From Escallonia rubra (lineage: Eukaryota > Streptophyta > Magnoliopsida > Escalloniales > Escalloniaceae): DNA of 64,000 nucleotides. Below, one piece after another: positions 2,606-62,038 of this stretch; positions within the stretch are counted from its first letter, which is position 1; the number at the start of each line of letters is the position of its first letter. Where the stretch lies: assembly GCA_033065855.1 (NCBI GenBank), contig JAVXUO010000685.1, forward strand, positions 1-64,000. The letters are read 5' to 3'. Made by a program: the position numbers and the translations under genes. The notes below the pieces were generated by a model, which worked only from the letters and a program-made list of their open reading frames with translations, did no database searches and had not been told where the DNA came from.

Positions 2606-3891
2606 ATGGCGGGTTTTTCATTCTAACCAAGTCATCTTTAAGTTTGATGCTGGATTGAAATCTTTCCAGTTGCTAGTGCATGTAATCGTATCCTAAACCA
2701 CAAGAATGCTAATGTTAATGGTTGTAGTTTATTCTTCCTAGTTTTCTCCATTTCATCGGCTCACGCAATTGCCTTTTTTGAGGTATTCCACACTTTTTAG
2801 ATCTTAAAAAAGTGGTACAAGAGCAACATATGGTCTATGCGGAAGGTGTATGATATGGTGGTTGTGGGAATTATAGAAAGAGGTTTTCTCAAGCATTTGA
2901 CTTCCAAACAAGGGTACCAAGTGTGCCATATTTTGCTTAAAGAAGATTCTGGGGAAACTGATTTACCATATTTGGTGGAGCTTTATGAGATTCTGGGTTG
3001 GAAAGCAAGGTAAAGGGAACTTGATAAATAGCAATTGGTGTGACCTTGGTTGGACATGATGAAATTTTCTTATCTTGATAACTTACAATCAAGGTTGATA
3101 CACTCGTGTCAGTAAGGAACACATAGAAGATGAAGATTGTGAGTAAGGTTCTATGAACTTCAAGTTATGGAACTACCTAAATAAGTTTTAAGCTACCTTA
3201 CTACATCATGTGACAAAGTTATTTATGCACAAGGAGAGTTTCCGAACTAGTAAGTGGCCACACCTCCCTAGAGCATCCTCTTCCTCTCTTGGTAGAACCT
3301 TATGCAGAATGGCAAAGGCTCGCACCTATCAGCTATACCATCAGATACTGAGATGTGGCCATGAGTCCTCGAAGCTAGTATGAACCTAGAGCAGATTGCC
3401 TCCCATATTCCCTTCCTAATCAAAGCAATAGATTGCGGTATAGGAGCAGGGGACACGAATCCGCTGCACTAACCATATATGGTTCCAGCAATATTGTTGT
3501 GACTTAATCCCAGCCCTACAAATTAATCCCACAAACCCAATGCACCATCTTTTGCCACGTCACCTACCCCAAACCAGCTCGAACATCTCTAACCCCCCCC
3601 CCCCCGCCCCTCTGTTGATCGAGGTGTTGTCGCTGGACCGTGGACGTCCCTGTTGTTGCCTTCTCTTCCCGCCGATCCCTGTCGGTGCCTCTTCTTCCTC
3701 TGTCATTGCCTCCCCTCTCCCCCCCCCCCCCCCCCCCCCCCCGCCCCGGCCCCCCGAACCCACCTCCACCAGAGGATGTCGATCTACACCACCAGTAGAA
3801 AGTTAATCAACACCACCATAGAAACTTGATCTATACCTCCCTCGATCAACACCACTCGCAAACCCACCTCTCAGTAGATCGAATATGTGTG

Positions 3892-3922
<31 letters not shown>

Positions 3923-5403
3923 GACGAGAGAGAGAGAGAGATTCCTACTGGTTTCGTTTGGTAACATGACAAAAGGATGGGCATCGGGTTTGTGAGATTA
4001 ATTTGGACGGCTGGGATTAGGTCACAATACCTCTGTCGTAACCATAGTTACTATACAGGATATGGATCCCTTGCAGTAACTATGATTACAACACCGCCAA
4101 TGAACACCTACGCAGATGAGGATTTTGAAAGTATGTTGTATCCCTTCAATGACCGCATCTGAGCACCTGCCTAGATCTTGGCAGTAATAGTCCAACAACG
4201 GTATAAGATTCTATGATCTATGATTGAGGAGTTACATTGAGGAGAGCCTATTTTCTATTGAGTTAATGATACTTGACATTTTTAGGGTTTGCCTTGTTAG
4301 AGCCAGCTTCCCCTATTTATTGAATTACACTAACGGACACTTGTATATAGTTCACATAGTTACTAGAATCAGTGAAAAGACAGTAGTACCCCCATTAAGA
4401 AATAAATTATTCCCAACCACCACAACCAAGATCTGACCTATTTACCACCATTACACCGGCCAAATCACACATGGCTCCCTCCTCCAAAGGCTTGGCGTTG
4501 CTGCCCCGCAACCAACATTGAAACGAACCCACCACTGCCGATCTACACCACAACTACCACTGTCCCGCCACCACCATTAAAGATGAACTCACCATTACCT
4601 ACTACAACCATCACCCGAAAAAACCACCACCACCAATCTACACCACAACGAACACTACCCCGCCACCACCACCCAAAACAAACCCACCACCTCCGATCTT
4701 CAGACAATCACCACTGCCCCACTACCACCAGCTGTTATCACCACCCACCACCACTACTGATATTTTCAACCACCACCAAGCCCACCATACAAATTGAGTT
4801 ACAACCGTCACCACCACGAAAAAGGGAGCTCTAGCACCGCTTTAGTATGATAGAAGGGTCTTACTGATCAATTAGCATGCTTGTCTGCCCTTGATTGACT
4901 GGTTAAAAAATGGGTAAGCCTCGATCAATATATCTCTTCGATCTTCTTTTCTGAGCATGAGCCGTTTGCTCTTCGTAGCCCTCATATCGTCACTATCGAA
5001 GAGGACGACAACAACCAACGTTTGGTGCAACACCTTGAAATGGCACCTTAATTTAGGAAACATATAAAAGTCGTTTGTCAACCGATGGACTCATCTTCAA
5101 TGCCATTTAGGCTCCACTGTTCATTCCTCTTAAACCTATTGCTGCTACTTATGTGTTAGGCCTTTTATTTCTATTTCATGATTTTTTTTGGTTCCTTTCT
5201 TATGGGTCCTTGGAATACAGTTTGGGTATACTAACATATTAAACTCAAATATTTTCAAGTTACAATAATAAGTATACAAACTATTAAATACTACTCCATA
5301 AGCCACACTAAATCCAAACAACTAAAGCCACTACGATGCATTCTTAGTGATTTGGAAGGCACCATAAAATTTAAATTTATTATTAACAGAACAAAATGTA
5401 TTA
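2606..5403. repeat. Intergenic stretch with simple-sequence tracts
   Basis: No gene is recognised. Poly-C runs lie near 3590-3606 and 3719-3742, and a (GT)n, poly-G and (GA)n series at about 3885-3940. A CCA/ACC-rich low-complexity tract covers about 4400-4810. The proline- and histidine-rich open frames here are translations of these tracts. Confidence 0.6.
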
Positions 5404-15960: not shown

Positions 15961-16143
15961 CGTGATTCAGACTCAGATACTGGACCTAAAGTCCAGGGAA
16001 AAAAAACTTTGTTCTTGCGGAACAAAAAAATGTCAATAATGAGCATATTGCTAATAGATATGACAAACAATGCGATTTGAGTGCGTTTGAATGAATAATT
16101 TTAAAATGCTACAAATTTTTGAAACCCTTTATCTCAAAATTTA

Positions 16144-17133
16144 GGAATAATTGCATAAAATATCCCTGTAATTTGGACGAGTTGCAAAAAGATCCCTAGA
16201 GTTACAAATTTGCAAATAGACACCTGAAGTTGCTAAAGTGTTGCATTAGATGATTCTTGTAACAAAATGATACAAATGTCTAAATTGCTCACGTATATAA
16301 TGATGGCTCCTCTATAGAAACCCTATTGTAGATCTAGGGGTTTTTTTTTTTGAATGGTCTTGGTGTTTGACAGAGGGTTGATGGAAGGTCTGGCGGCGGT
16401 GCAGGTGGATGGCCTGATGGCAGGGTTGGCGAGGGTGCAAGTGGTTCAGGTGATGACGAGAGGGCTTAGATCTGGGGTGGGGTGGACCAGGTTATGGCGG
16501 CGGCGCAAGTGGCTGGGGATGATGGAAAGGCTAGCGGCGGCACATGTGGCTGGGGCTTATGGCGAGGTTGGCGGCGGTGCCAATGGTTCGGTTGTTAATA
16601 GATCTAGCAATGCACAGTTCGCGGTGGGGAGGTGGCGGTGTACTTGTTCGCGATGCATGGTGGCGGCGCAATTGGCTTGGGTTGATGAAGTGCTAGCGGT
16701 AACGGTACAAGGTCATCGTGGGTGTTCGGGGTTGGGTGGTAGCAGAAATTGGGGATAGTGGTGGTGGGTAGGGCTATGTGAGACGCTAAGGTTTGGATTA
16801 TGAGGTTGGCGACTTGGGTTTCGGTTGAGCGGTGTGGCTAGGGTTTTGGTTGGTGAGGTAGCAGCTAGGGTTAGGGATTGATTGGATTGGAGAAGAAATT
16901 GAGACTTGAGTGGGAAAGAAAAAAAGAAAGAAAGGGTATTTTAGTCTTTTAATATAAAAAAATCTACCAAATGCACTTTTTAAGAGAGTAAAGATCACGC
17001 TCCGTCAATTTGGATGATATTTTTAACGATTGCAACAAAATTGGCACCTCAGGTGTTTATTTACAATTTTTGTAACTTAAGGAGTCTTTTTGCAACTCGT
17101 CCAAACCACGGGGGTATTTTATGCAATTATCCC
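16144..17133. mobile_element. Mutator-like element (MULE) with long TIRs
   Basis: A 990-bp element has inverted repeats of about 105 bp starting 'ggaataattgcataaaata' on the left and 'gggataattgcataaaata' on the right. It is flanked by a perfect 9-bp target duplication, 'caaaattta', at 16135-16143 and 17134-17142. The 9-bp duplication and long TIRs are diagnostic of MULEs. No transposase is present. The interior (about 16350-16870) is G-rich with degenerate repeats of a 'ggcggcggtgcaggtgg' type and an open frame of 134 codons that looks low-complexity. It may be captured host DNA (Pack-MULE) or an internal filler. Confidence 0.88.
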
Positions 17134-17851
17134 CAAAATTTATGCATTTTGAAAATTCAAAATTTATTAAGTTTAATGTTTGATAACTTTTGTCGATGGT
17201 TACTGTGTAACACTAAAAGGTTATGAAATAGATAGTCTACCGATCCCTTACCAGCCTATGCCCATGCCAAGTAGCTAACTTCGAGACAATTCAGGGGAAA
17301 CTTGCCCTACGGGGCATTACAAGAGAAAATGCTCCTAGAAAGAAAGGGATCCAGAAAGAGAAGGAGCTCGTTCCTTCGTGTGGGGGTAAAGACCATTTCC
17401 TGTATTTGGATTGAAAGTAGTAGCCAATAAAATGCCCAAACACCAAAAGATGAAAAGTTCATGGCTAAGATTGGAAAAGAAGGACAAAGAGAGTAATGAA
17501 TGATTAAAAAAATAAACATGAGTGTGGTACGAAAAGAATGCTTGAATTGTGGGAGGCAGTTCTTATATACATTTGACAAAAAAATTAATTTAGAATGATT
17601 ATTTCAACCGGATATTTTGCCCACCTATGTCTTCCTTTCAAATATTTCACGAATTCTCTTTTATAGTCACCAAAAAGTGAATTTCATTCAAGGTGCTTTC
17701 AAATTATCAGTTAAAGTGAAATTCGCAGTTGAAGTATTTCATACAAAAACACATTTTATGAGCATACAGAGTAACATATAGAAACAAATATGTATTAAAG
17801 ATAATGAATACTGTCACCTTTATGTGTAGGCGAGGTGTCATTCATGGTAAC

Positions 17852-28215: not shown

Positions 28216-28263
28216 CCAACCCAAATTCCGCTTTGTTTTTTGCCACAAAAGCAATAGCCAAAC

Positions 28264-29385
28264 ATGAGTACTGAAATGGAAACACTCTGGGTCTTTGCTC
28301 TAGCTTCCCACTTCACTTCCATATTGAACTTCATGTCATTCCTACTTGTTCTTCTCCTAGCTTGGATTGTCACGACCTTGATTTGCTGGGCTCACCCAGG
28401 TGGTCCAGCTTGGGGCAAGCGTGGGTGGAGAAAGTCCTCCATGGCTAAGCCCATCCCAGGTCCTAGAGGTTATCCAGTTGTGGGAAGCATGAGTCTCATG
28501 TCTGGACTCGCACACCACAAGATTGCAGCCGCGGCAGGAGCTTTCAACGCCAAGCGACTGATGGGTTTCAGCCTTGGTGAAACTAGAGTCATCATCACGT
28601 GCAATCCGGAGGTGGCGAAAGAGATTCTGAACAGTTCGGTGTTTGCTGATCGTCCGGTTAAAGAGTCGGCTTACTCCCTCATGTTCAACCGAGCCATCGG
28701 GTTCGCCCCGTACGGATCTTACTGGCGAACGCTGCGTAAGATCGCCGCGACTCACCTTTTCAGCCCGAAGCAAATCAAAGCTTCGGAGCTCCAGCGCTCC
28801 GAAATCGCTAGCGAGATGGTGGCAATGTTCGGAGCTCACACGGGAGATATCCGTGTTAGGGACGCTCTGAAACGAGCTTCCCTAAACAACATGATGTGCT
28901 CCGTATTTGGACGAAGATACGGACTGGGTTCATATAACGTCGAAACCGAGGAGCTGAGGAAGCTTGTTGACGAAGGGTACGAGTTGTTGGGTACACTCAA
29001 CTGGTCCGACCACCTTCCTTGGTTGGCTGACTTTGACCTGCAAAAGATCCGGTTCAGGTGCTCCCACCTAGTACCAATGGTGAACAAGTTTGTGACCCGG
29101 ATTATTGACCAGCACAGAGCTCAACCCGGCCAGCACAACCGTGATTTTGTCGACGTTTTGCTTTCTCTTCAAGGGACTGATGCATTATCCGACTCCGACA
29201 TGATTGCCGTACTCTGGGTAAGTCAGCATACTAATAATCTGCCGCTAAAGCTAGTGTCCGACCATATAAAAAATCTAAATTTCCTTTTTTATTTTAAAAT
29301 TTAACATTTTGGTCTTAAGTTAGTTTAAGAACTAGCCTCTCTGATCTTAGTTGGATAACAGAAAGAACATTATTTGTATTACAAT

Positions 29386-29434
<49 letters not shown>

Positions 29435-30180
29435 TTTTTTAATGGCTAACTGTGGATTTCATGTGGAATGCGTGCCGGTTAACTAGTACAGTACACAACA
29501 TAAAAAGCCAAACAAGATGACATTTATTGTTTATTTGGCTACAGGAAATGATATTCAGAGGAACCGATACGGTGGCGGTCTTGATAGAGTGGATACTGGC
29601 GAGGATGGTGCTTCATCCTGATGTTCAATCAATGGTCCAGGACGAGTTGGATCGGGTGGTCGGGAGGTCACGTGCGGTGACGGAATCTGATATAGCCCAC
29701 ATGGTGTATCTGCCGGCGGTGGTCAAGGAAGTACTGAGGTTACATCCACCAGGCCCACTTCTCTCCTGGGCCCGTTTGGCGATTACGGACACGAATGTAG
29801 ATGGGTGTCACGTGCCTGCTGGGACCACCGCAATGGTGAACATGTGGGCCATCACCCGGGACCCAGAGGTGTGGACGGACCCGCTCGCATTTAAGCCCGA
29901 GAGATTTCAGGGATTCGAGTCGGATGGAGTGGAGTTTTCCGTAATGGGGTCCGACCTAAGGCTCGCACCGTTCGGGTCCGGGAGGCGGACGTGCCCGGGC
30001 AAGGCCCTGGGTTTGACCACGGTTACTTTCTGGGTCGCGTCGCTCTTGCACGAGTTCGAGTGGGTCAGGTGCGATCAGAAGCCCGTGGACCTGTCGGAGG
30101 TGCTCAGGCTCTCCTGCGAGATGGCTAACCCACTCGCCGTGAGGGTGCACCCGAGGCGTGCATCAAGTTCGTTATGTTGA
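28264..30180 (+). CDS. CYP78A: Cytochrome P450, CYP78A family (CYP78A6/8/9-like)
   Basis: Two exons, 28264-29217 and 29545-30180, give 529 residues; the 327-bp phase-0 intron follows the conserved DMIAVLW. An N-terminal membrane anchor (about residues 20-42) precedes a PIPGPRGYP hinge. The CYP78A signature [20 protein letters not shown] is present. Exon 2 opens with the I-helix (MIFRGTDT, 320-327). The ExxR pair is E380/R383, PERF follows, and the haem loop is [10 protein letters not shown] with ligand Cys468. CYP78As sit in the ER and act non-cell-autonomously to promote organ and seed growth (KLUH, EOD3); the substrate is not established. [27 protein letters not shown] and [11 protein letters not shown] fit the CYP78A9 group best. 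All key residues are intact. A (TA)n(GT)n microsatellite lies in the intron. Confidence 0.97.
29386..29432. repeat. (TA)n(GT)n microsatellite in the CYP78A intron
   Basis: A short TA run passes directly into about 16 GT units, within the single intron and about 110 bp before the acceptor. It is probably length-variable. Confidence 0.9.
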
Positions 30181-35153: not shown

Positions 35154-36982
35154 TACTTGGGAGTTTCTTCTGAGCTCCAATTTTCAACAACCAAAAGCGC
35201 CTCCACCACGACCAACACATTTCTTCTGCCACTGCACAATTATTGTTATGGCAGTAACACACTAACTTGCCAATTACGGCTTCAATGGGTTTGATTGGGT
35301 GAATGAGCTTGATTGACGTTATTTGCACAGATTGAAGATACCAGGGTAAGCGATGGATGAAATTTTGTGGTGATGTTTGTTGCAAGGACAATTGTGGTCG
35401 ATATTATGGTGGATTTGGATTTAAAAGAGTGGTTGTACTGTCATGGTGACTGATATTAGAGGGTTTGATGTTCGACAATGTTGGTTAATGATAGTGTTGG
35501 TTATGGCTATTAGTGGCTATGGTGGTTAGCTGTGTTCGTGGGTTTGATGTTCGTGGGTATTGGTCACTGGTGGTGGCGGCGGCGGCGGTCGTCAATAGCT
35601 ATGGTGATTCGCGGTGTTGGCAAGTTTTTGTGTTGATGGTGGTGGTCGTGGCGGCAGTCAATGGATGTGGTGGTTGGCAATGTTGTTAGTTTGGTGTTCT
35701 TGGGTGATAAATGTTGGTGGTGAAGATTGAAGGAAGAAGAGACATAAAATACTTCCAACAAAAGTCGAAAGGCGAATCTCATAAAAAAAAGAAAAAGAAA
35801 TTCAAAGCTGAAAAGTGATAACTCCAAAGTGGAGTTTTGAAAAACAATCATATTTTGAAAACTGGTTTGCAAAGCTAAAAAGACCAAAAAAGAGAAAGAG
35901 AAAAAAAAAAAACTACAATTGTCTGTCGGACAACGATGTATTTTTCTATTTATAAAATTAAACAAAAAATTAAAAATAAAAACTGTTCAAGTGCTACCTT
36001 AACTTCTTGAAAGAGCTCTTTTGCACTTGTATCTATAGTAAAACTGTGGAAAGTATACATTAATGCAACAATGCCAAGAACTATTCGTGTTGCACATGCT
36101 AAGATGTAACCAACAACTGTCATCTGATAGTGAATAAACTTGGTGTCAATATGATAAATGATTAATGCATCTATTCTGGGCTAAGAAACAAGCTAAGAAA
36201 TTAACTTAAACCTTTGTTGTATTGGGGTCAAAAGATTTTGAATGACAGCAGTGTGTGACTACTGAGTACTGACTAATGTCCGCTTCATCAGGAAGAGAGA
36301 ACTCCAACATCATACCAGTGGTTAACACTGAGGGATCAGTGGAATGGACAAGAGTTGGTGTGCATAGGCCTCCTGGTCTTGATGGCAAAAGTGGTGTAAT
36401 GATGGTACATGGGAGGACCGTACATTTTACTACCGTTAGTCCACTATAAACAGTTGTCGAGATTAAGTTTTTTGAGTTGGTCGGTAGGGTAATGGCTGGA
36501 TGAATGATATGCCAGGGGATATAAAGGTTATGTTTTGACAAATGATTTTCATTTTAAGGAAGCCAAAAAAGCCACAAGGTTGTAAAGATATAAAAAGAGA
36601 CATTGGATTGTACCCTACAGGAGTCAAATTCATAAAGAGAACTTATCACTGACAAAGATCGAAAGTTCATAGGAAGGCAAAACCATATATATTTTGAACA
36701 TCCACACTCGAGGGGAAATATGATACATTGTATGTGCAACACAGCGCCAATATCAGATTTTTAAAAAGAATATCTCAAAAGAAAATAATTCTTTATAGCT
36801 CGCAAAGGGATGAGTTTACGAGGGATTGCTAAGGCCCATAGTTTCTTCCAAACATATACATGAGAGCTGGTTTGAAGTTGGGGTTGCCCATGTTGTATTA
36901 ATCAAGAATTTTGGAGTTGCCCATAGCTTACTCCAACCATACCACTTGTTTTATGATGTTTAAAGCTGTGAATGAGCAATTC
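35154..36982. other. Intergenic DNA with GGT/TGG-rich tract
   Basis: About 35400-35740 is a low-complexity GGT/GTTGG-rich tract, including (GGC)n near 35573-35587; the 133-codon minus-strand frame at 35965-35564 is a translation of it. A 57-codon frame from an ATG at 36277 has no family match that I recognise. No secure gene is present. Confidence 0.4.
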
Positions 36983-37160
36983 TGTACAGGCATGTATGCC
37001 ATTGTAACGTCAAGAAGAGGTGTCAGGTCTCGTAACAGAAAGAAGGGATCTCAGAAGACAATACTCTGCTAATTAAGAGTATTGTCTTCTGAGATCCCTT
37101 CTTTCTGTTATGAGACCTGACACCTCTTCTTGACGTTACAATGGCATACATGCTTGTACA
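36983..37160. repeat. 178-bp near-perfect hairpin
   Basis: The left arm 36983-37067 and the right arm 37076-37160 are 85 bases each around an 8-base loop (37068-37075). Only two positions differ between the arms, and in a plus-strand RNA both are G-U pairs, so the RNA stem would be fully paired. No transposon termini or target duplications are seen at its ends. See findings. Confidence 0.9.
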
Positions 37161-40100
37161 TAATTATTAAGAGTACATGTGCCCGATATTTTGCATGTAA
37201 CGCTTGATTGAATAGTCTGACATCTCTTACATTTAAATCGCTGTGGAGTTTTGAATTATAAATCTTATGCAAGATTTATCGGAAGGAGTTTTAATTTTGT
37301 ACCATCTCCAGACCACAAGGAAGGAGCGAAGACTATATCAATCTTCTTAGAGAAATGCATCATCACAGTATAATTGGTCAACTACAGTATACTCCTCCAA
37401 TAGTAATTATAATTTCATGAGGCACCAGCTAGCCTGATCACCAGCTGTTGGTGGCCGTGCTAACGACATTGAGCCTTACAGAGTACCATTAACGCTGGCG
37501 ATTCCCTTGGCGATGGTCCCACTAACAGATCCAATTTGGCGACATTAGATCTTAATTAGTATGAATTTGCAACCTTTTAAGGAACATAGGTTACTGTACA
37601 TGACATCAAAGGAGATGTTGATATTTGTCGAGGATGAATCATCTTACTTTTCATTAATTTAACCGATTCCTCTACCAAGTCAAGGTGGCAAAGTGGGGAC
37701 AAATATAACTTTTCCCTAGTAAATATTATTCCGAAGAATATAACTTCCCACATACACAAACTTTAAAGAGAAAATTTCAACATATTTATTAGTTTTGGTA
37801 AAGATTTTTGGTATAGTACAAAAAAAAAAAAGTGATTCTCAATGAGAGAGGCGGAGCCAGACACAGTTTATAAAAACTAAAGGGAGATGCTATTTTTAGG
37901 GTGCTCCATACTACTTATTTTAAAGATGTTTTGCTCATGAAAATACGTTTTTAGCGTTGAAAGTTGTCAGAAAAATCATAACGTACTGAATTTGTAAAAG
38001 CTTAACCTTAGCTACAAAGAGCTAATCTTTACTCCTATCATATTTTTATCCACTTTGACTAATTGTAAATGTTCAATCTCTTGAAATCCCCACATATTAC
38101 CTTTTATCGTCGCTCAAGTGCAAGTTGCCAATCTTCATGATAAACCAAGGAAAGCAAAGGAGAAAACTCCACATAATTGGATATATACGAGTTTAATGTC
38201 AAAGTCAACGTCACATGAACATATTTATTTCTTGCAAATCCTTGAGGTAAACATCTGTAAAGTAAGCATACCGTGCTAACAGAACGGTGAGCGGAGAAGA
38301 ATCGACGGTGAGCGCAAAATCCATGCATTGTTCCCCATCAAAGGATGCAAAGTATCGAGGCATTTGGTGATAACGATTTTGAAGCAACAAGAATAGTCGA
38401 AGGGGGTGCAAATAAAATCTATTGCTTGTTTCTAGATGAATGTCGAAAGGTGAAAGAACCATAGAAGGTTAGAGAAATGATGGAGAGGTGCACAGATTGG
38501 AAGAGGCAATAAATTATTGCAACAATTGTGACCCAAGTTATCTTTTATTTTCTAACTGCGGAGGAAATGGCAATTGTGACCCATTTTATTAACGGCGTAG
38601 AATGGGAGGGAGGGCACCATCACCTAAACACTGAAAATATACATATAGCACAAGTGTATTGACGGACAACAGGGGCCACATGCCCACTTGTGCTCCCCGA
38701 TGTGTCTGCGTTTGCAGAGGGAGGACAGCGTGGAGTTTTCACGCCCAAGTGGTTTGTCACTTAAAAAATATGTTCTATCGTTATCGAAATTTTAGCGATA
38801 AAATAAATGTGTTGAACAACATATGAAAGTTGAAATAGACGCTCATTCATTTAACTTAATTCGTAGTCCCCCGTTCCCCTGAATACTTAAATCAAACAAA
38901 ACTAGCCACAAAAAATGGGAAAAAAAAAAACACATAGTAGAGGCTTCTGTCATAGTATCGTACCCTCCCTTCATTCGGTGACACACGTTTCCATTATATT
39001 TGTGCAAACATCAACAGTAAAGAATAAGACAATCATGCTAACGAAGATGTGCAACATATTCCACACTATTGGGATATAAGATTTGCACCATTATCCAACT
39101 GACAACTTGCCGTGTCAACTCTGTGTCAACACCTTTTTTAAAATGGCAAGGAATAGTTGGGGTCAGTGTGACTTGTTAAAAGGCGATAAGGTTCGCACCC
39201 GTCATTGGTATATTAAAATAAAGCTAGCTGGTCCCTTCTTCTCAATTCCCTAAACGAAATACGTACGTGTGATTGTCTTATGGAGTCTTCTCACTTGCAA
39301 GATATGTTCTAGATATTGTCTAGGTGAAATTAGATATGACTTTGAACCGTTGGGTGTAGTTATGATCTTAACTAATCGAATATGTCAAATTAGAGCAGAG
39401 AGTATCGTATCCATTGCCTCAGAATGATTCAGAGCATCAAATTATTATTGTTCGGGGTCATTAGATATTTTGGTATAATACGGAACCAATAGAGTAGAGA
39501 AAATGCTTATGAGGCTCAGGACCACTTCGTTAACATCGAGCTTGTTTTAGAATATAATTCTATGTCCATGCGACCAAAAGCACCGACACTTGTTAATTAT
39601 GACGGTGTTTAGTGAGAATGCAGATGTGTGTCTAATGACATTAGATGTACAAAACCATTTCACTTTTCATCATTAGATAGAAAGCATCAGTGCATGTATA
39701 CTTGAAAGGTGATTAGTTGAAATGCCTTTTGATTGGGCTTTTAAGGTCTGACAATAAAGTGACAACAATTAGAACTACTAACAAAGGGTAAGGCACATCA
39801 TGCCTTGAACCAAACCAAGGTCCGTACAATTAACTTGGGTCCCTTGCAGTAACCTCTTGATGATGTAAACTCTTCCATCAAAATAGAGCCTTAGATCCTA
39901 GAGCGAGATTGATATTTTCTACCTAGCTAAAGGCGAAAAATTCAATATCCAAAAACAGTCTGTTTATTATTTGCAAGAATTAAGACCACGAGAATGTGAG
40001 CCTTTTCAAACACTCAATCGCGACTGCGGCGTGTATAGCAAACCAATTTCCGTGAACGAATTCTAACTAAACATTCCAATTTCACTGAGTTAGATCAACC

Positions 40101-43525: not shown

Positions 43526-46500
43526 CTATTCTTTTTTGGCAAAGCGCAGAACAAAGGCTAATCCCAGGATCAATAGGGCTATCACAACAAGCCATACGAA
43601 CTTAAATGAATTTCCAGGAGCTTGGCTGGATGCTGAAGCTGCTTTCGAAGGTTTTGGAGGTGGAACATATTGTTGTGATGTTGGAATGGTGGAGCTATCA
43701 ATGTCCCCGATGTAGTACTGGCTCATCATCTCTCTTGCAGACTCGCTATGGCCTACATCTTCAAATTCATCTGTTGCATCTTTCTCTGCAAAGTTGCCAG
43801 CTAAAATAAGTGACTCCACTCTCCTATTTTTCGCTTCACAATGAAGGTGATGAACAAAGATCACAATCTTACCGGTTGCTGTTAGCAAGACTTCATCGCC
43901 TCCAGGATGATCATCCAGAAATGGGGTAACATCATACACCTAATACAGGATTGTGACAAGACATGTGAACGATATCATACAAGTTATGATCTCATTTTTT
44001 TTTAATATTATGTTGAAGTGCCATACTTAATCAATCCAATTCATAGATCATCAAATAGAATAAAAACTGATTTTCTGACTCCAAGATTCATCTAGAAGTG
44101 AGGAAATATCATACAACCCATTCAGGCTTTCAGGGTATACACATGAACAAAGCATATTTTGTCCAAGTACAGTTTGTTTGACCTCATTTTAGTTTATTAA
44201 ATGGAAGATTTTATCATGGGGAGCTGGAAAAGCCATAATAATTGGGGCGACTTGGCTCATAGGAACACCACCTATAAAGCAAGTGGGGATCGGAATGCAT
44301 AAACTAGGTTCTCTGTAACTATGTATCGAGCTGCTAGTGAAAATAGTCAAAATACTATTTACAAGACCCATTCAAACAAAACTCTGCCCCGTTACTCCTC
44401 AAATCCAGCCCTTTTAGTCCGTTTATATCGTTCATCCAAGAACATAACGACCACATCTTGTTTCTCGAGATCAGGCCCTAAAATCTCTCAACGTAAATCC
44501 TTGAACCCCTGACTATCTGATCTAAAGAGCTTTTGTTCAAGGACAAGTAATGCAACCCTAACATTTTGAAAATTTCTGACAAACCTGAATCCAAGTGATC
44601 TCCTGTATCTGTTCTGTCTGCAATTTAATTACCCCCAAGACAGGAGGACATTTTTTAAACTCCAATTTGTCCGATATATTCAACTTAATTTCCTCTTCGG
44701 CTTATTTATCATCCCATCAGAAAAAACTTTGCAACAAGGCTCCTAGTAAAGCCTACAAAAGAATCATAGGAAATGTAAAAGCTCCATCTACCCACAATAG
44801 AAGGGTCAAGAAAAAGGAATCTTGAGCATGACCGTTAAATGTTCGGCTGGTTTCTCCTACCATGTAGAACCAAATGTTCTCTTGTAGGAGAAAAGCAAAG
44901 CAGTTCCTCTTTTAAGATAAGAACTTTCACTAATGAGGATTTCCTGTTATGGTCCAAGCGGGAAGAACACTCCTCGTTTGTGGCTTTAAACCCAAAAGTT
45001 GATCTCTCACATTGCTCAACCCTGCTAAAATCAAGGCTGTAAATAGATATTTGAAAATCCAAACATTCATTTCTGTTTCTGTTCGATTATAGCGAAATTA
45101 ATTAACCATATCTGTTTAGAAAATACCCACATCTAAGCCGATACAAATATTATATAGCCTATCCTCGATCCGTTTAACATTCGACCAAAAACTTCTCTCT
45201 CGGTTCCTAGGTATTAAAATGGTGTTGCAGGATCTCACTCATTTGACGATAATATTGCGATGCAGCTCTTTGAGCTGATTAAGAAATTCTTTAGGAGGTT
45301 GACAAAAGGTTTTTGCAAGGGAAGTAAAAAATGTTTTGAAAGAGAGGATCAGATCTGTCTCCGGTTTCGTGCAGGCCTAGGGACTAAAAATGCCACATAG
45401 GGTTCTTGGGCATTTCACCAAGAAAATGATGCAGATGAACCAGATGAATTTTTTTTACATTTTTAATTTTTTACAATAATTGATACATAAAGAGAAGCTC
45501 GGTGAGTTAAGAGATACTAATCGCTGGAAAAAGGGATTGTCAGCAGCAATTCAGCTATGAATCCATGCCCACTGCTCAAAAGTATTCCCTTCTTTGGGAG
45601 GTTGGGAGGGAGGGAGCTTTAATATAAAAGCTCGAGCATCAGAAGAGGGATAAGAATGGCCTCGGTCTAGAAGTAAATGCTTCTAACCTACTAGCTTTTG
45701 GGTAAATTTCAAGATGTACAGAAGAAAGACGAACGCATGCAATTTTGGCATGCTCCCACATATCAAAGGACATTATAATGGAGTGCCCCCAGATGCTAAG
45801 GATTGTTTTAATCTCGTAAATGACTTTTAATGAGATTCCCCACCTATGACAATCCACTTAAAGAGATTTAAAATCCTGCCCTTACATTTAGAACTTTGCA
45901 TTCTTAAGTTGCAGAGCTTTGTAGCATACTTTTAGTTAAAAGGGGACGAAATGAAACGAAGAAATCAGAGTGGGCAATCCTCAGTGGTGGCACTATCATT
46001 GTGTATATCTACAACATCGTCTGCACTTGTATGCCTCTTCAAAAGTCCATCATTTTTTTCCAAGGTGCCTTAAAAGTGACATTCTAACCACAATGATTCG
46101 ATATGACAGGTAGCTTAAGACACTCCACATTCTGCATCATGCCCATAGGAGTAGACAAAAATGCAGATCCATGGGCTCAGAAACAAATTTGTACCGATCA
46201 CATACGAATCCCCACAACATAACAAGAGTTACAATTAAGGGGACTAAAGAGGCAGCAGATATTTTTTGCATCTTTTCTTGACGATAGCGTGCTAAACATT
46301 CCAGTTGTGACTACTTCTATCCAAATTCAAAGTCAGATAAAAAAGAACTAAACTAGTAATGTCAAGAGGGAATGACAGCTTTGACTTGATAGCGTATCTA
46401 AATCTACAGAAAGTGCATTCTTCTTTACAAACATTGGGCCATCCAAATGGAAAAAGGGGACTTCCATGCTGGGAAAGAACGTGAATTAAAGAAAGTAAAA

Positions 46501-52170: not shown

Positions 52171-52481
52171 TATTTACTCCATTGGGAATTTGGGTTAATC
52201 CCTTTTCAACATTCTATTGCTCAATCTTGTTGCTTTGGAAGAGACGAAAGGCACTCGAGAACCTTATTTGAATGAACTTTTTTATTTTATTTCTTGAAAC
52301 TTTTCTATATATAAGAATTGTCAAAATTTTCTATGAGCAAGAAGAAATAAATGATGGGTAGGTTAAAATTGTTCATAGTTGTGATGAGAAGTGCATGGAT
52401 TTGGATCCCTTACTATAACCATGGTTACATCATCTCTCTCTCTCTTTCCAGAATCACTTTCAGTGTAACACCAAAATCGTA

Positions 52482-52852
52482 CTCCCTCCGTCCCTTTTTA
52501 AATGATACATTTTGTTTTGCACGTAGATTAAGAATTTAGGGAGTATATTATATGTCTTTCCCATTTTACCCTTTAGAGAGTGGAAAGAATAGAGTGGGCC
52601 ATGAGAGAGAAAATTGGTTGGTAGAGTGTTAAATGTGGAGAGAGAAATAGAATAAAAAAGTGTAAAGTGGTGGGTCATGAGAGAGAAATGAGTTGGTAGA
52701 GAATTAAATGTGGTGAGAGAAATAGAATAAAAAAAGTATAGAAAGGGTAAATGTGTAAAAATACTTAAAGAATCTTTCCTAATTTGGAAGTTGTCACTTA
52801 TTGTGGGACGGCCCAAAAAAAAATTGTATCACTTAAAAAGGGACGGAGGGAG
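52482..52852. mobile_element. Stowaway MITE
   Basis: The 371-bp element has inverted termini of about 30 bp starting CTCCCTCCGTCCC and is flanked by TA at 52480-52481 and 52853-52854. The interior carries a diverged tandem duplication of about 75 bp (around 'gagagagaaatagaataaaa'). It interrupts a piece of Helitron-like sequence, so it is younger than that piece. Confidence 0.92.
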
Positions 52853-52892
52853 TATTACATTAAAAATGAAAAATATGTTCTCATTATAAGTA

Positions 52893-56940: not shown

Positions 56941-58196
56941 CAGGGGCGGAACCACGCTTGTACGAGGGGGTGCTATAGCCCCCCTCAGATTTTGAAAAAA
57001 TATATATATATATATAGTGTTTTTTTTTATTTGCAACTTTCCCTTTCTCTCTCTTTCTCTCTGTCTCTCTCTCTCTCTTCCTCTCTCGGCTCTCACAGTC
57101 TCACAGTCAACTCTCAGTCATCGGCTCACCGCGGCACGGCGGCACCTCTCCTCCTCTCTCGGCTCTCTCAGTCACCGCGGCACCACACAAAGGCCACCGG
57201 TCATCGGCTCGGCAGCCTCGGCTCATCGTCGTAAGGTAACGCACTAACGGGTCTAACGCCGGTCGGCGGTCGCCGTGGCGTCAAGCCGTCAAGTCAAGCT
57301 CTCACGCCGGCATCTGACGCATCTCTCCTCCTCTCTCGGCTCTCTCAGCCACCGCGGCTCGCCGCACACCGGCACCACCCACCGACCCACGGCCACCGGT
57401 CGTCGACTGGGCTCATTGGTAAGGTAACGCCGGTCGCCGTCCCCCGATTCCGAAGCGCGAAGCCGGCGAAGGCCCTCCCCAGTCCGGCAGTCCCCACCCC
57501 AACTCCGGCCAGTCCCCACCCAACTCCGACCAAATCAGATCTGGCAGATCTAGCTTAGATCTACCGTCTACGAGCCGGCAGACGTACCGAGGAAGTTCCG
57601 CCACTGCCGTTCGGCGGTCACGGCGCTTGAAATAGTGAAATTGAAGATCTGACTTTGAGTTTCAGTGACCGACAACATTGCGACAACGACGCCGTTCTGA
57701 TTTCTGAGGACTGAGGTCGGTGTGCATTTTGAACAATTTCTTTTGCTATTGAGAATTGATTATTTGATTAATAATTTTAGGTTAGTTGTGTATTTGATAA
57801 TTTAGATTATTAATTGATGTTTTATGGATGTTAATCGTGCATTGAGCACTTAGATTTGAGATTGTTGATGGAGGATGGAACCCAATTGAATTTTTATCCC
57901 ATTTGAGCATTGATTATTTTAGATTGTGTTAATTGTGCATTTAAAAATTGAAATTATTTAGTGCTTTCGTTTGTAAACACTGAAATGTGTTTTTTGTATT
58001 ATCTTATTTTGTGTTGTAAAGAGTCTTTAGTGGCTCTCATGAAACTTAATAAGACCTTTTAGATGTTTTTTTAGTATGTTTTGTGTATTATCGAAAAGTG
58101 CACTTTGTTTTTGTATGCTATTTTACTTATAAAAATATTTATCTTCTTTGATATATTTTTAGCCCCTCCTGAGATGAAATCTTGGTTCCGCCACTG
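56941..58196. mobile_element. Non-autonomous hAT (Tip100-like), sister of the 49.8-kb copy
   Basis: A 1,256-bp element starts 'caggggcggaaccacg' and ends 'cttggttccgccactg'. It is flanked by a perfect 8-bp duplication, 'gctgagag', at 56933-56940 and 58197-58204. It shares with 49792-50923 the 'tagcccccctcag' motif, the (CT)n tract, the GC-rich block and the AT-rich intron-like block. It is longer mainly because part of its GC-rich block ('ctcctctctcggctctctca') is repeated. It lies inside the coding part of the copia fossil. No transposase is encoded. Confidence 0.92.
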
Positions 58197-59350
58197 GCTG
58201 AGAGAGATTGGTCACGTCATTGGTTATGTGACTTGTGGCACCAGAGTCAGGATACCACACCGGGTCATAAGTTTGTGGAGATGGGGGAGTGGCTAGATAA
58301 GCCACAGAGGAAGATGAACGAGGTGGACGATACGGGCAATGAGGTCGAATATGACCAGGTTGATTGCAATGATGGCATATAATGGAGGTGGTGGGACGGT
58401 TGGAAGATGGCTGGGAAAAGAAATGATCGGATAAGCGGCCACCGCCACAGTGTAGTTGACGCCCCCTGTATTTACTGCCATTAGAGTGAAGAAGTGGATA
58501 TGGGTGTTGAAATTTGGGAGGTGGGGCCGATGGTTGAGATGGAGGTAGGCGGTTGGTAATCGCCGCATGTACTTGGGTTGAAGATAATTCACGGACATGC
58601 TGTCTTTCTATCTGAGTCTCATGAGTGAGAAGAAGAGCATAGAGACTATCCAAAGAGATGGAATCAGGGCGGGTAGTGATAGAGGTAACAAAGGATTGAT
58701 ATTCAGAACCAAGTCCAGCTAACAGGGCATTGATGAGGTCTTCATCAGAGACTGGGTGACCAATGGCAGCCGGAGTGTCTTGGATTGTTTTTCCCTTATG
58801 AAAATCAGTCATGTTACGATCATGTTTGCTAAGATGGTGAAGATTGTAACGAAGATCGAAGATTTTGGCTTTGGATTGAGAGGCAAACTTGCGCTCAAGA
58901 GAAAGCTAGACAACAACAGATGTATGTAGGCCAAGAACTTTACTAGAGGGTGTAGGAAGGGCGTAGGAAGCGTTTTAAGGGGGATAATCAGATGAGGCAG
59001 CTGTGAGATCAGATATTGGTGTAGGCATTTCAGTGGGTTCAAGATGTTTGGGAGGACACATATGGGTGCCATCAACAAATCCAAGGAGATCATAACCACG
59101 GAGAAGTGGCAGAAATTGACTTTTCCAGAGAAGGTAGTTGTCTGTGGTGAGTTTAACATATATGAGGTGTTTAAGGTGATTTAAGGGGAAGACAACGAGG
59201 AGTTAGGGGTGGAAGGTGTTGGGGACGAAGCCATGACAGGGAAAAAAAATTAAGGTCCGCATGAAAGGAGAAGAAGAGAGGTCGTTTGACTTTATGCTCT
59301 TGATATCATAACAGATAAAGGAAATTTGTCTTTGTTTCATTTCATGTCTT

Positions 59351-62003
59351 TTTTTTTTTTGGGTAAAAAAGGTCCTTTTTTTTCCATTATGTGCTATACT
59401 TTCCATTTTTGTATGTTACATACACTGTATCAACATTTCATCTAATTACATTGAAACATCATATTATTCAAGTCATTGGTTCCTACTTTTTGTGAGCAGC
59501 CTTTCATCCAATCCCCATTCTCTGCATAGCCTTCGATTCTTCTCATTTTCCATTGCTAGTTTCCAGCTCTGTACACGAAATTTAATCCATTCCTTGATCA
59601 TATACATGCATCCCTGCACCTTAGCACCTCTATGCTCAAATATTCTAGCATTCTTCTCTTGCCATATGCCATACACTGTTGTTGCCACAGCTAATTTCCC
59701 CAGTCGAGCTCTTAGACTCTTCCCTCTGAACATGCGAGCTGCCTGATTGCTAAATTGGATCCATGTTTGCAATCTTATATTCACTTGCATTTTCCCTAAT
59801 ACCATTTGCCATAATTCTGTTGTATAGGGACACTGTGTAAACAGATGATCCTCTGTTTCTGGAGAAGTCATACATAATATGCAAGTATCTTCTTGAATCA
59901 TGTTCCATCTCTTCAATTTATGCTTTGTCCTTAGTCCTCCTTTACATAAAATCCAAATCTTGATTGAGTATTTAGGCATGTTTCCAGGAAACCAAATGAG
60001 CTTCCAGATAGGGTCCTTCTCACCATGCTTCCTCATATTTTCCCAAGTTGAATGAATGGTGAATTGTCCCTTCTTGTTCAAAGTCCAATGTACTTGGTCT
60101 GTTGCCTCCATATTTGGTTTCTAGTGTTCTGCTAGCAAGAGATTGATTTCTTTTAGCTCCTTTGATCTAGGTAGCATCCTTTTCCAATCCCCTTCTAGGA
60201 TGATCTCATGGACTTTGGCATCAGGTTGAATTCCTGAGTCATAAGTGGCTCTCTGTCCAAATACATCAATCAAAGGTTTCTCAGATATCCATTTGTCTTT
60301 CCACAGCCATGTATTCTTCCCATCCCATACCTTGTACTGAATAAGCTCTTGGCATTGCTTCCTTAGTTTCATCAATTTTCTCCAAGTCCATGACAATATC
60401 CTTCATGGCTTAAAGGTCCAGATATGTTGATTTTTTATGATGTATATATGGCACCACTTAATCCACAAGGAGTCTTTCTTATTTGCAATATCCCATAGGT
60501 GCTTGCATATTGCAGCCCTATTCCATTCTTCTAGGTTTTTAATACATATACCCCCTTCTTGTTTGGGAAGACAAACATCCTTCCAAGCCACCTTTGCCCC
60601 TGTACATTTCATCTCCTTCCCATGCCATATAAAGGCTCTGATCTTCTTATCAATTAGCTTTATTACTCTCTTAGGCAGTATAAAAATGGTACACTAATAA
60701 ATCTGCATGCTACATAATACTGATATTGCCAATTGTACTCTACCGGCATAAGAAAGTACCTTTGTTGTCCAGCTTGATAGCCTTTTGGTGATTCTTTCCA
60801 CTAAAATTGAGCAATCTTGGTATGTCAGTTTGGTTAAAATAAGTGGTACCCCAAGATAAGTAATAGGCAGCCTCCCCATTGGAATATTAACCATCTCAGC
60901 CAAGTTTGCAGCTTTCTTTTGGTCTATTCCAGCTAAGAAGATTGAGCTTTTCATGAGATTGGGGGATAAGCCTGATAACAACCTGAATTCCTCCAAAGTT
61001 GCTTTAATTAGTCTCAGAGTTCCCTGATCAGCTCTAGCCAAGATAAAAAGATCATATGCAAAACACAAGTGGTGTATTTGCAACTCTTTGCATTTAGGAT
61101 GGTATTTAAAGTCCTCCTGTTGTGCATAATTTTCCATTAGTCCAGATAAAGCCTTCATTACCAAGAGGAACAAGTAAGGGGATAAGGGATCCCCTTGCCT
61201 TAACCCTTTGGCACTTGAAAAATATCCTTCCACATTCCCCTTTAGGCTTCTTGAAAATCTAGCACTGCTTACACATTGCCTAAACCAATCAACAAACACA
61301 CTTGGAAATCTCATGTTTACCATAACTGCTTTTAAAAAACTCCATCCTATAGAATCATATGCTTTCTGTAGATCTATCTTCAAAACACATCTTGGTGATC
61401 CCCCTTTTATATGATAATTCCTCACAACTTCTTGCATAAGCAATATGTTATCAGCTATATGCCTATTAGCCACAAAAGCTGATTGATTTTTACTTATCAA
61501 AGTAGGCAGAATCTGTTTTAGTCTAGCACATATAACCTTTGAAACACACTTATAGACCATATTGCAACAAGCAATTGGTCTAAAGTCCTTCATTGTGTTT
61601 GGATTTGATGTTTTAGGTATCAAGGTTAATATGGTACTATTAAAGAATTTGATATTTTTGTTCTTGTGCAGCATCTCTTGCACAGCATTAGTCATTGTCT
61701 TACCTACCACATTCCATTTTTTCTGAAAAAAATCAGATGTAAACCCATCAGGTCCAAGTGCTTTATTTGATTTCAAAGCAAACATGGCTTCCTTGACTTC
61801 ACTTTCCTTCACAGGTGCTTTCAACATTTCTTGTTGTTCCTCAGTTAAGACTTTAGTGAGTACCTGCTGCAGTCTGCTTCTTATATGAGGATGTTCAGGC
61901 ACAGGACTTCCCAAGAAGTCCTTAAAATGTTGAATGGCAACTTGATGTACATTCTTACTGCCTGTGACTTGTCTTCCCTCCTCAGTTGTTATTGCCATAA
62001 TTC
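59351..62003 (-). mobile_element. L1-type LINE, 5'-truncated, with 18-bp target duplication
   Basis: The element is 2,653 bp on the minus strand with an 18-bp direct repeat, 'tgtttcatttcatgtctt', at 59333-59350 and 62004-62021, and an A-tail (poly-T at about 59351-59360). It is inserted in the 5' LTR of the copia fossil. The 5' truncation removes the endonuclease and leaves ORF2 from just before the reverse transcriptase. The 3' part encodes the zf-RVT/RNase H-like region in pieces. The truncation and target duplication are typical of target-primed reverse transcription. Confidence 0.93.
59473..61998 (-). pseudogene. LINE ORF2 remnant: reverse transcriptase and zf-RVT domain
   Basis: A 434-codon frame (61998-60694) holds the reverse transcriptase: NKALGPDGF, DFRPIACCN, motif A KIDLQKAYD (D209), motif B GLRQGDPLSPYLF and motif D-like YLGVPL. 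Motif C reads FAYDL where active L1 enzymes have FADDL, so the first of the two catalytic aspartates is lost. After a break the sequence continues in pieces at 60612-60403, 60396-60121 and 60111-59473, the last with the zf-RVT pattern (WKLIWFPGNMPKYSIKIW, CILCMTSPETEDHLFTQCPY). At least three breaks and the missing endonuclease make it inactive. The long remaining frame suggests a moderate age. Confidence 0.92.
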
Positions 62004-62038
62004 TGTTTCATTTCATGTCTTGCTTATACAACCCGACT

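Follow-up and report, generated by a model that had tools for sequence, protein, structure and literature searches.

An apparently young hairpin in Escallonia rubra and its probable origin by snap-back template switching

Introduction

How does a nearly perfect hairpin come to lie between two genes of a plant, and does it serve any purpose there? The question is raised by positions 36983-37160 of a 64,000-nucleotide stretch of Escallonia rubra DNA (the window), which makes up the first 64 kb of a contig of 194226 bases (C1203; JAVXUO010000685.1) in a genome of 566 Mb and 3222 contigs. A single template-switch event can produce a perfect stem, also where a hairpin of the newly made strand templates replication, and patterns consistent with this process have been reported at human microRNA loci (PMC8794818). 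In rice and Arabidopsis, TE- and pseudogene-related miRNA genes are reported to arise via inverted duplication (PMC3237417). For the E. rubra locus, the evidence presented here makes it rather probable that the hairpin is a young, single-copy inverted duplication, situated between two genes and generated in situ through snap-back (intrastrand) template switching. An origin in one step is plausible, and a role of the locus as a MIRNA or siRNA gene is unlikely though conceivable; taken by itself, the locus amounts to a modest record of a mutation and does not represent a new system.

Structure and Prominence of the Hairpin

The inverted repeat consists of a 5' arm (arm A, 36983-37067) and a 3' arm (arm B, 37076-37160), each 85 nt in length, separated by an 8-nt loop, GCTAATTA (37068-37075), with all coordinates given for the plus strand. 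Arm A is identical to reverse-complemented arm B at 83 of 85 positions, corresponding to 83 Watson-Crick pairs and two G:U pairs. Both differences, which lie at 37111 and 37154 in arm B, place a G of arm A opposite a T of arm B, so that RNA transcribed from the plus strand would be fully paired across 85 bp. The minimum free energy predicted for this RNA is -164.1 kcal/mol, compared with a mean of -44.1 (sd 4.31) for shuffled sequences, a z-score of -27.8 that none of 200 shuffles equaled. The stem continues outward for five more bases with one mismatch, the left extension (36978-36982) pairing with TAATT on the right (37161-37165), and the arms in this longer version span 36978-37067 and 37076-37165 on the plus strand (90 nt, 97%). 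At 43.5%, the G+C content of the arms exceeds that of the 500-bp flanks (36.2% and 37.4%). A preliminary description of the locus, made from the letters of the window, had reported 85-base arms, an 8-base loop and two G-U compatible differences, and the sequence and the predicted fold bear out each of these features.

The prominence of the structure was gauged by a background scan in which arms had to be ungapped, 30 nt or longer and seeded by an exact 12-nt match, with a loop of at most 400 nt, and from which low-complexity stems were removed. The scan covered the window and a further 200 kb, a non-random sample drawn from one contig of this genome as 20 segments of 10 kb at even spacing. Two hairpins, of 85 and 30 nt, were returned for the window and seven for the 200-kb sample, the longest of these seven being 37 nt. 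The runner-up among near-perfect arms free of low complexity across these 264 kb therefore measures 37 nt, vs 85 nt here. A general repeat finder that does not require near-perfection also placed this hairpin, with 90-nt arms, as the longest among the 25 inverted repeats listed of 124. The other repeats listed for the window include imperfect ones of 87 nt (77%), 73 nt (85%) and 61 nt (74%), as well as AT/AC palindromes of 31-37 nt. The first two of these imperfect repeats have wide spacers and occupy 3478-4046 and 16136-17141, respectively. Elsewhere, two alike hairpins with 37-nt arms, based on ACGTTTTG...AACCACGTTTT, occur about 940 bases apart in locus L036 (at ~3131 and ~4069).

A structure of this kind could in principle be an artefact of assembly or sequencing, in which a read folds back on itself. 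Fold-backs do occur in long-read data, and the description given here is based on one assembly. Such artefacts are usually long and exact, whereas the arms in question measure just 85 nt, differ at two positions, enclose an 8-nt loop and are bordered by differing sequence on the two sides. An artefactual origin is accordingly considered very improbable.

Copy Number and Source of the Arms

When the whole hairpin was compared with the 566-Mb genome, it matched only itself (two matches, representing the two strands). A single arm, searched at E values up to 10, gave one first-look candidate and matched the two arms only, and the same two places were returned (2 of 2 candidates) for the protein encoded by the arm's one fully open sense frame of 28 codons. 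Within the reach of this search, the 566 Mb yielded no further copy of the arm at the DNA level or as open-sense-frame protein; the search is limited to what its first look picks up, so that a highly diverged source could escape it. As far as searched, the hairpin thus appears to be single-copy. A positive control was provided by a miniature inverted-repeat transposable element (MITE) at 52480-52854 of the same window, for which there were 2737 first-look candidates; 40 of these, including the element itself, were scored, and all 40 matched across 373-375 of its 375 bases with 90-100% identity.

These results bear on a transposon origin, in which the hairpin would be a non-autonomous fold-back or MITE-like element composed of long inverted repeats with hardly any interior. 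Its overall shape is transposon-like, and the self-complementary TGTACA at its ends could conceal a target duplication. Since the hairpin matched only itself in a search that recovered the control MITE at full or nearly full length in 40 of 40 scored places, it is not a multi-copy MITE, and, within the reach of the search, a multi-copy family of this kind is refuted for this genome. A scan for target-site duplications found none that was significant: the best candidate was TGTACA itself, and exact direct repeats of at least 6 bp occurred in 624 of 2000 random placements, so that the scan lends a target-site duplication no support. A direct repeat of 10 nt, described below, flanks a single arm and not the entire hairpin. 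There is consequently little reason to regard the hairpin as a transposon, and we hold this explanation to be quite unlikely. The preliminary description had judged the hairpin not to be a standard MITE and had raised dispersed copies as the observation that would make it one. The genome search of the arm agrees with that judgment, in that it found no dispersed copies and only the two arms matched in the 566 Mb; the accompanying statement that a target duplication is lacking does not carry over, because the arms end in a self-complementary hexamer, TGTACA, which leaves such a duplication undecidable by eye. The control element, which we take to be Stowaway-like from its ends, resembles the hairpin in being an inverted-repeat element of the same region; it is unlike the hairpin in its 2737 first-look candidates, its shared ends, and its 39-nt terminal repeats around a 297-nt interior.

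Attempts to trace the arm to a gene gave negative results. The short frames tried across the hairpin matched no Pfam family, the arm's open sense frame matched no PDB sequence, and one 20-mer had no exact match (0) in viral and bacterial/archaeal collections. Within this scope a gene origin of the arm was rejected, its open sense frame having no Pfam family, PDB sequence or second genomic place. The suggestion in the preliminary description that the hairpin was born from a gene via inverted duplication is accordingly not supported, as no gene relative was found as DNA or as open-sense-frame protein.

Genomic Setting

The hairpin is neighbored on one side by a cytochrome P450 gene, represented by open frames at 28258-29304 and 29521-30180 on the plus strand, and on the other by a cytochrome b5 open frame at 43526-43939 on the minus strand. 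A 2.18-kb query around the hairpin gave, besides itself, 13 matches at E values up to 1, none of which fell within 36906-37869. Older repeats flank the hairpin further out, with roughly 66-87% identity to other loci. On the right, an old repeat at 37870-38717 shares its main pieces (~66-74% identity) with eight loci located on other contigs (L006-L013); one additional contig carries shorter pieces (L014, L018). On the left, 36000-36905 contains short blocks with 70-87% identity to parts of three loci (L015-L017), and L015 and L016 agree in the order of the blocks; they resemble pieces of one decayed element, and the frames tried gave no Pfam match.

The adjoining older repeats were considered as a source from which the hairpin might have been copied, and this candidate was rejected: the best z-score of the arm against the 13 loci L006-L018 was 2.5, with 40 shuffles for each. 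Nor did the arm have a significant match in the rest of the window outside 36901-37250. Consensus TATA-like sites are present at 36589, 36686 and, past the hairpin, 37257 of the plus strand, as well as at 36685 of the minus strand; counted without a chance control, they are uninformative on the presence of a promoter.

A Direct Repeat and the Proposed Mechanism

The feature that offers an insight into the origin of the hairpin is a 10-nt direct repeat, ATTAAGAGTA. Its first copy spans the junction of loop and arm B (37072-37081, plus strand) and contains AGAGTA, one half of the 6-bp stem TACTCT/AGAGTA at the base of the loop. Its second copy (37166-37175, plus strand) starts one base past the end of the 90-nt version of arm B. 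A corresponding repeat was sought on the left side of the hairpin, where the longest match was 4 nt. The 6-bp stem is uninformative alone, being part of any inverted repeat; what carries information is that its sequence recurs beyond arm B. Chance matches of 10 nt or more occurred at 248 of 40000 randomly placed spots with this geometry and, in a second run, at 245 of 40000, 207 of them non-low-complexity, while shuffles of the right flank reached a 10-nt match in 14 of 20000 cases. When a gapped score replaced the exact word, 432 of 20000 random spots were equal or better. None of these counts is a clean p-value, since the repeat was noticed after looking.

The occurrence of the repeat on the right side only, with a longest match of 4 nt on the left, gives the event a direction. 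We infer a snap-back switch in which a nascent strand of plus sense would have reached AGAGTA and folded onto TACTCT over the 8-base loop, forming a putative seed hairpin TACTCT-GCTAATTA-AGAGTA with a 6-bp stem (37062-37081, plus strand; -2.3 kcal/mol with DNA parameters). The polymerase would then have copied arm A backwards to give arm B, as far as TGTACA or five bases beyond. Finally, the strand would have re-annealed to the original template slightly upstream of its exit point and continued, with the result that ATTAAGAGTA was duplicated beyond arm B; the second copy would be the footprint of this re-entry. On a snap-back switch, arm A is the original and arm B the copy. Two cytosines of arm B, in the symmetric contexts CG and CHG, may later have changed to T.

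Several observations can be set beside this scheme. A near-perfect reverse-complement copy next to its source, the feature expected of a template switch, is present, and the arms are each other's only match. The bases TAATT (37161-37165) count against a snap-back, requiring either that copying went on beyond TGTACA with one mismatch or that three extra bases were added (TAATTA-TTA-AGAGTA), and the higher G+C content of the arms relative to their flanks is left unexplained. An interstrand switch, or another repair route together with a chance repeat, would leave much the same picture. A snap-back switch also predicts that relatives with an empty site should carry arm A followed by GCTAATTAAGAGTACATGTGCCCG. 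This pattern, allowing up to three mismatches, had 0 matches in this assembly and so gave the mechanism no support; its absence is counted as neutral because the assembly possibly represents a single haplotype.

The locus resembles the template-switch mutations described by Monttinen and Loytynoja (2022; PMC8794818), in which a perfect stem and its short loop arise together in one step, and the intrastrand form in that work, with a hairpin made by the new strand, is in keeping with the putative seed hairpin. The same study deals with reconstructed histories around human microRNAs and in rRNA genes, unlike the present case of one plant locus with no compared relative. If the snap-back origin holds, the locus would be a plant example of a perfect long hairpin born in one step from ordinary DNA, and one that has kept its footprint in the form of the seed hairpin, the re-entry repeat, the direction and the datable arms.

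Arm Differences, Age, and Selection

If arm A is ancestral, both differences are C to T changes in arm B, at 37111 in a CG context and at 37154 in a CHG context. The inferred ancestral arm B contained 22 cytosines (2 CG, 4 CHG and 16 CHH), and the chance that both changes fall in the six symmetric sites is ~6.5%. To judge from these contexts, the two differences are compatible with deamination of methylated cytosine, which they do not prove.

The age of the hairpin was estimated with an assumed substitution rate of 7e-9 per site per year. Two changes in 170 sites correspond to ~1.7 million years (95% range 0.2-6.1), a figure that ignores gene conversion between the arms, and counting the outer mismatch as well (3 of 180 sites) raises the estimate to ~2.4 million years. 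The hairpin therefore appears to be young. In the preliminary description, the near-identity of the arms was taken to mean that the inverted duplication is recent or conserved. The first alternative agrees with the near-identical and apparently young arms; the second is not required, since near-identity needs no selection and the G:U pattern is without weight. A transition at a G:C pair yields a G:U pair in the RNA of one of the two strands, and two such changes agree in strand with a probability of 1/2, so that their agreement is no sign of selection on an RNA. Most likely, the hairpin has no selected function.

Potential as a Small-RNA Locus

A hairpin of this form might also be a young MIRNA or hairpin-siRNA locus, which would be transcribed, diced along its stem and active in trans on a target. 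Such a function is compatible with a snap-back origin, and both could hold together. The fully paired stem predicted for the RNA, with the z-score given above, favors this possibility. The hairpin is shorter than 300 nt and any duplex inside its stem stays within the limit of five mismatches, two properties named among published criteria (PMC12594335). A hypothesis in print holds that MIRNA loci begin as perfect inverted duplications and are cut chiefly by the siRNA-generating Dicers (PMC12825306; similarly PMC1790633). The predicted foldback offers duplexes of 20-24 nt with at most five mismatches and no large bulge, as would any perfect stem. For plant MIRNA genes, the expression criterion is at least 10 precisely cut miRNA/miRNA* reads, at least 75% of them on one duplex.

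Comparison with Rfam gave 11 matches at a loose threshold. Ten of these lie on the stem and involve eight miRNA families, and the eleventh, in the flank, is to a CRISPR repeat family. All 11 scored below the gathering threshold, at which 0 families matched. The best E value on the stem was 1.2e-9; the best loose match, MIR1888, reached 50.5 bits vs a gathering score of 72, and all ten stem matches were at least 20 bits under their gathering scores. The loose matches on the stem involve many unlike families and both strands, and the three alignments inspected rest mostly on pairing and not on letters. The parent gene found neither as DNA nor via the open sense frame also argues against a young MIRNA gene, as does the fact that near-identity and the G:U pattern are explicable without selection. 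Taken together, the observations make it unlikely, though by no means far-fetched, that the hairpin is a functioning small-RNA locus.

The published literature was searched with 12 of 16 twelve-nt tiles, spelled both as RNA and as DNA, that were derived from arm A and its complement; the remaining four cover the arm's outer end and a single variable position. Among the main texts containing arm tiles, none concerned plant small RNA by its title, and with supplementary tables outside this scope the sequence may be published. The occurrence of one tile in three papers on oil palm, and of another in a paper on tobacco mosaic virus (PMC9502800), was taken as chance.

The hairpin is like the young MIRNA genes of Fahlgren et al. 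(2007; PMC1790633), which are inverted duplications with self-complementary foldbacks and are mostly single genes. The 16 Arabidopsis loci described in that study had both similarity to protein-coding genes and sequenced small RNAs, whereas no gene relative was found here. It is also like the Arabidopsis IR71 siRNA locus (PMC12825306) in having a long self-paired stem, an expected Dicer substrate if transcribed; IR71 forms ~3 kb of dsRNA from which siRNAs were measured, compared with 85 bp known from sequence alone in E. rubra. The activity of DCL1 is reported to be limited on perfectly paired dsRNA (PMC1790633). If the E. rubra hairpin is transcribed, its 85-bp stem would be expected to be processed by DCL2/3/4 into mixed siRNAs of 21-24 nt rather than one precise miRNA. 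A stronger form of the idea, in which the locus is a proto-small-RNA locus at birth, a non-genic snap-back hairpin that is already transcribed, diced and methylated, strikes us as doubtful. If true, it would represent a way for plants to gain small-RNA loci without a parent gene or a MITE. More generally, small-RNA genes may originate from hairpins of this kind as their raw material.

Other Elements in the Window

Two further elements of the window can be described. The MITE at 52480-52854 has TACTCCCTCCGTCC at its ends. Remains of a retroelement occupy 58159-62007 on the minus strand and comprise a copia-type gag piece (58159-58905), a zinc-binding RT piece (59473-60120) and a reverse transcriptase (60694-62007).
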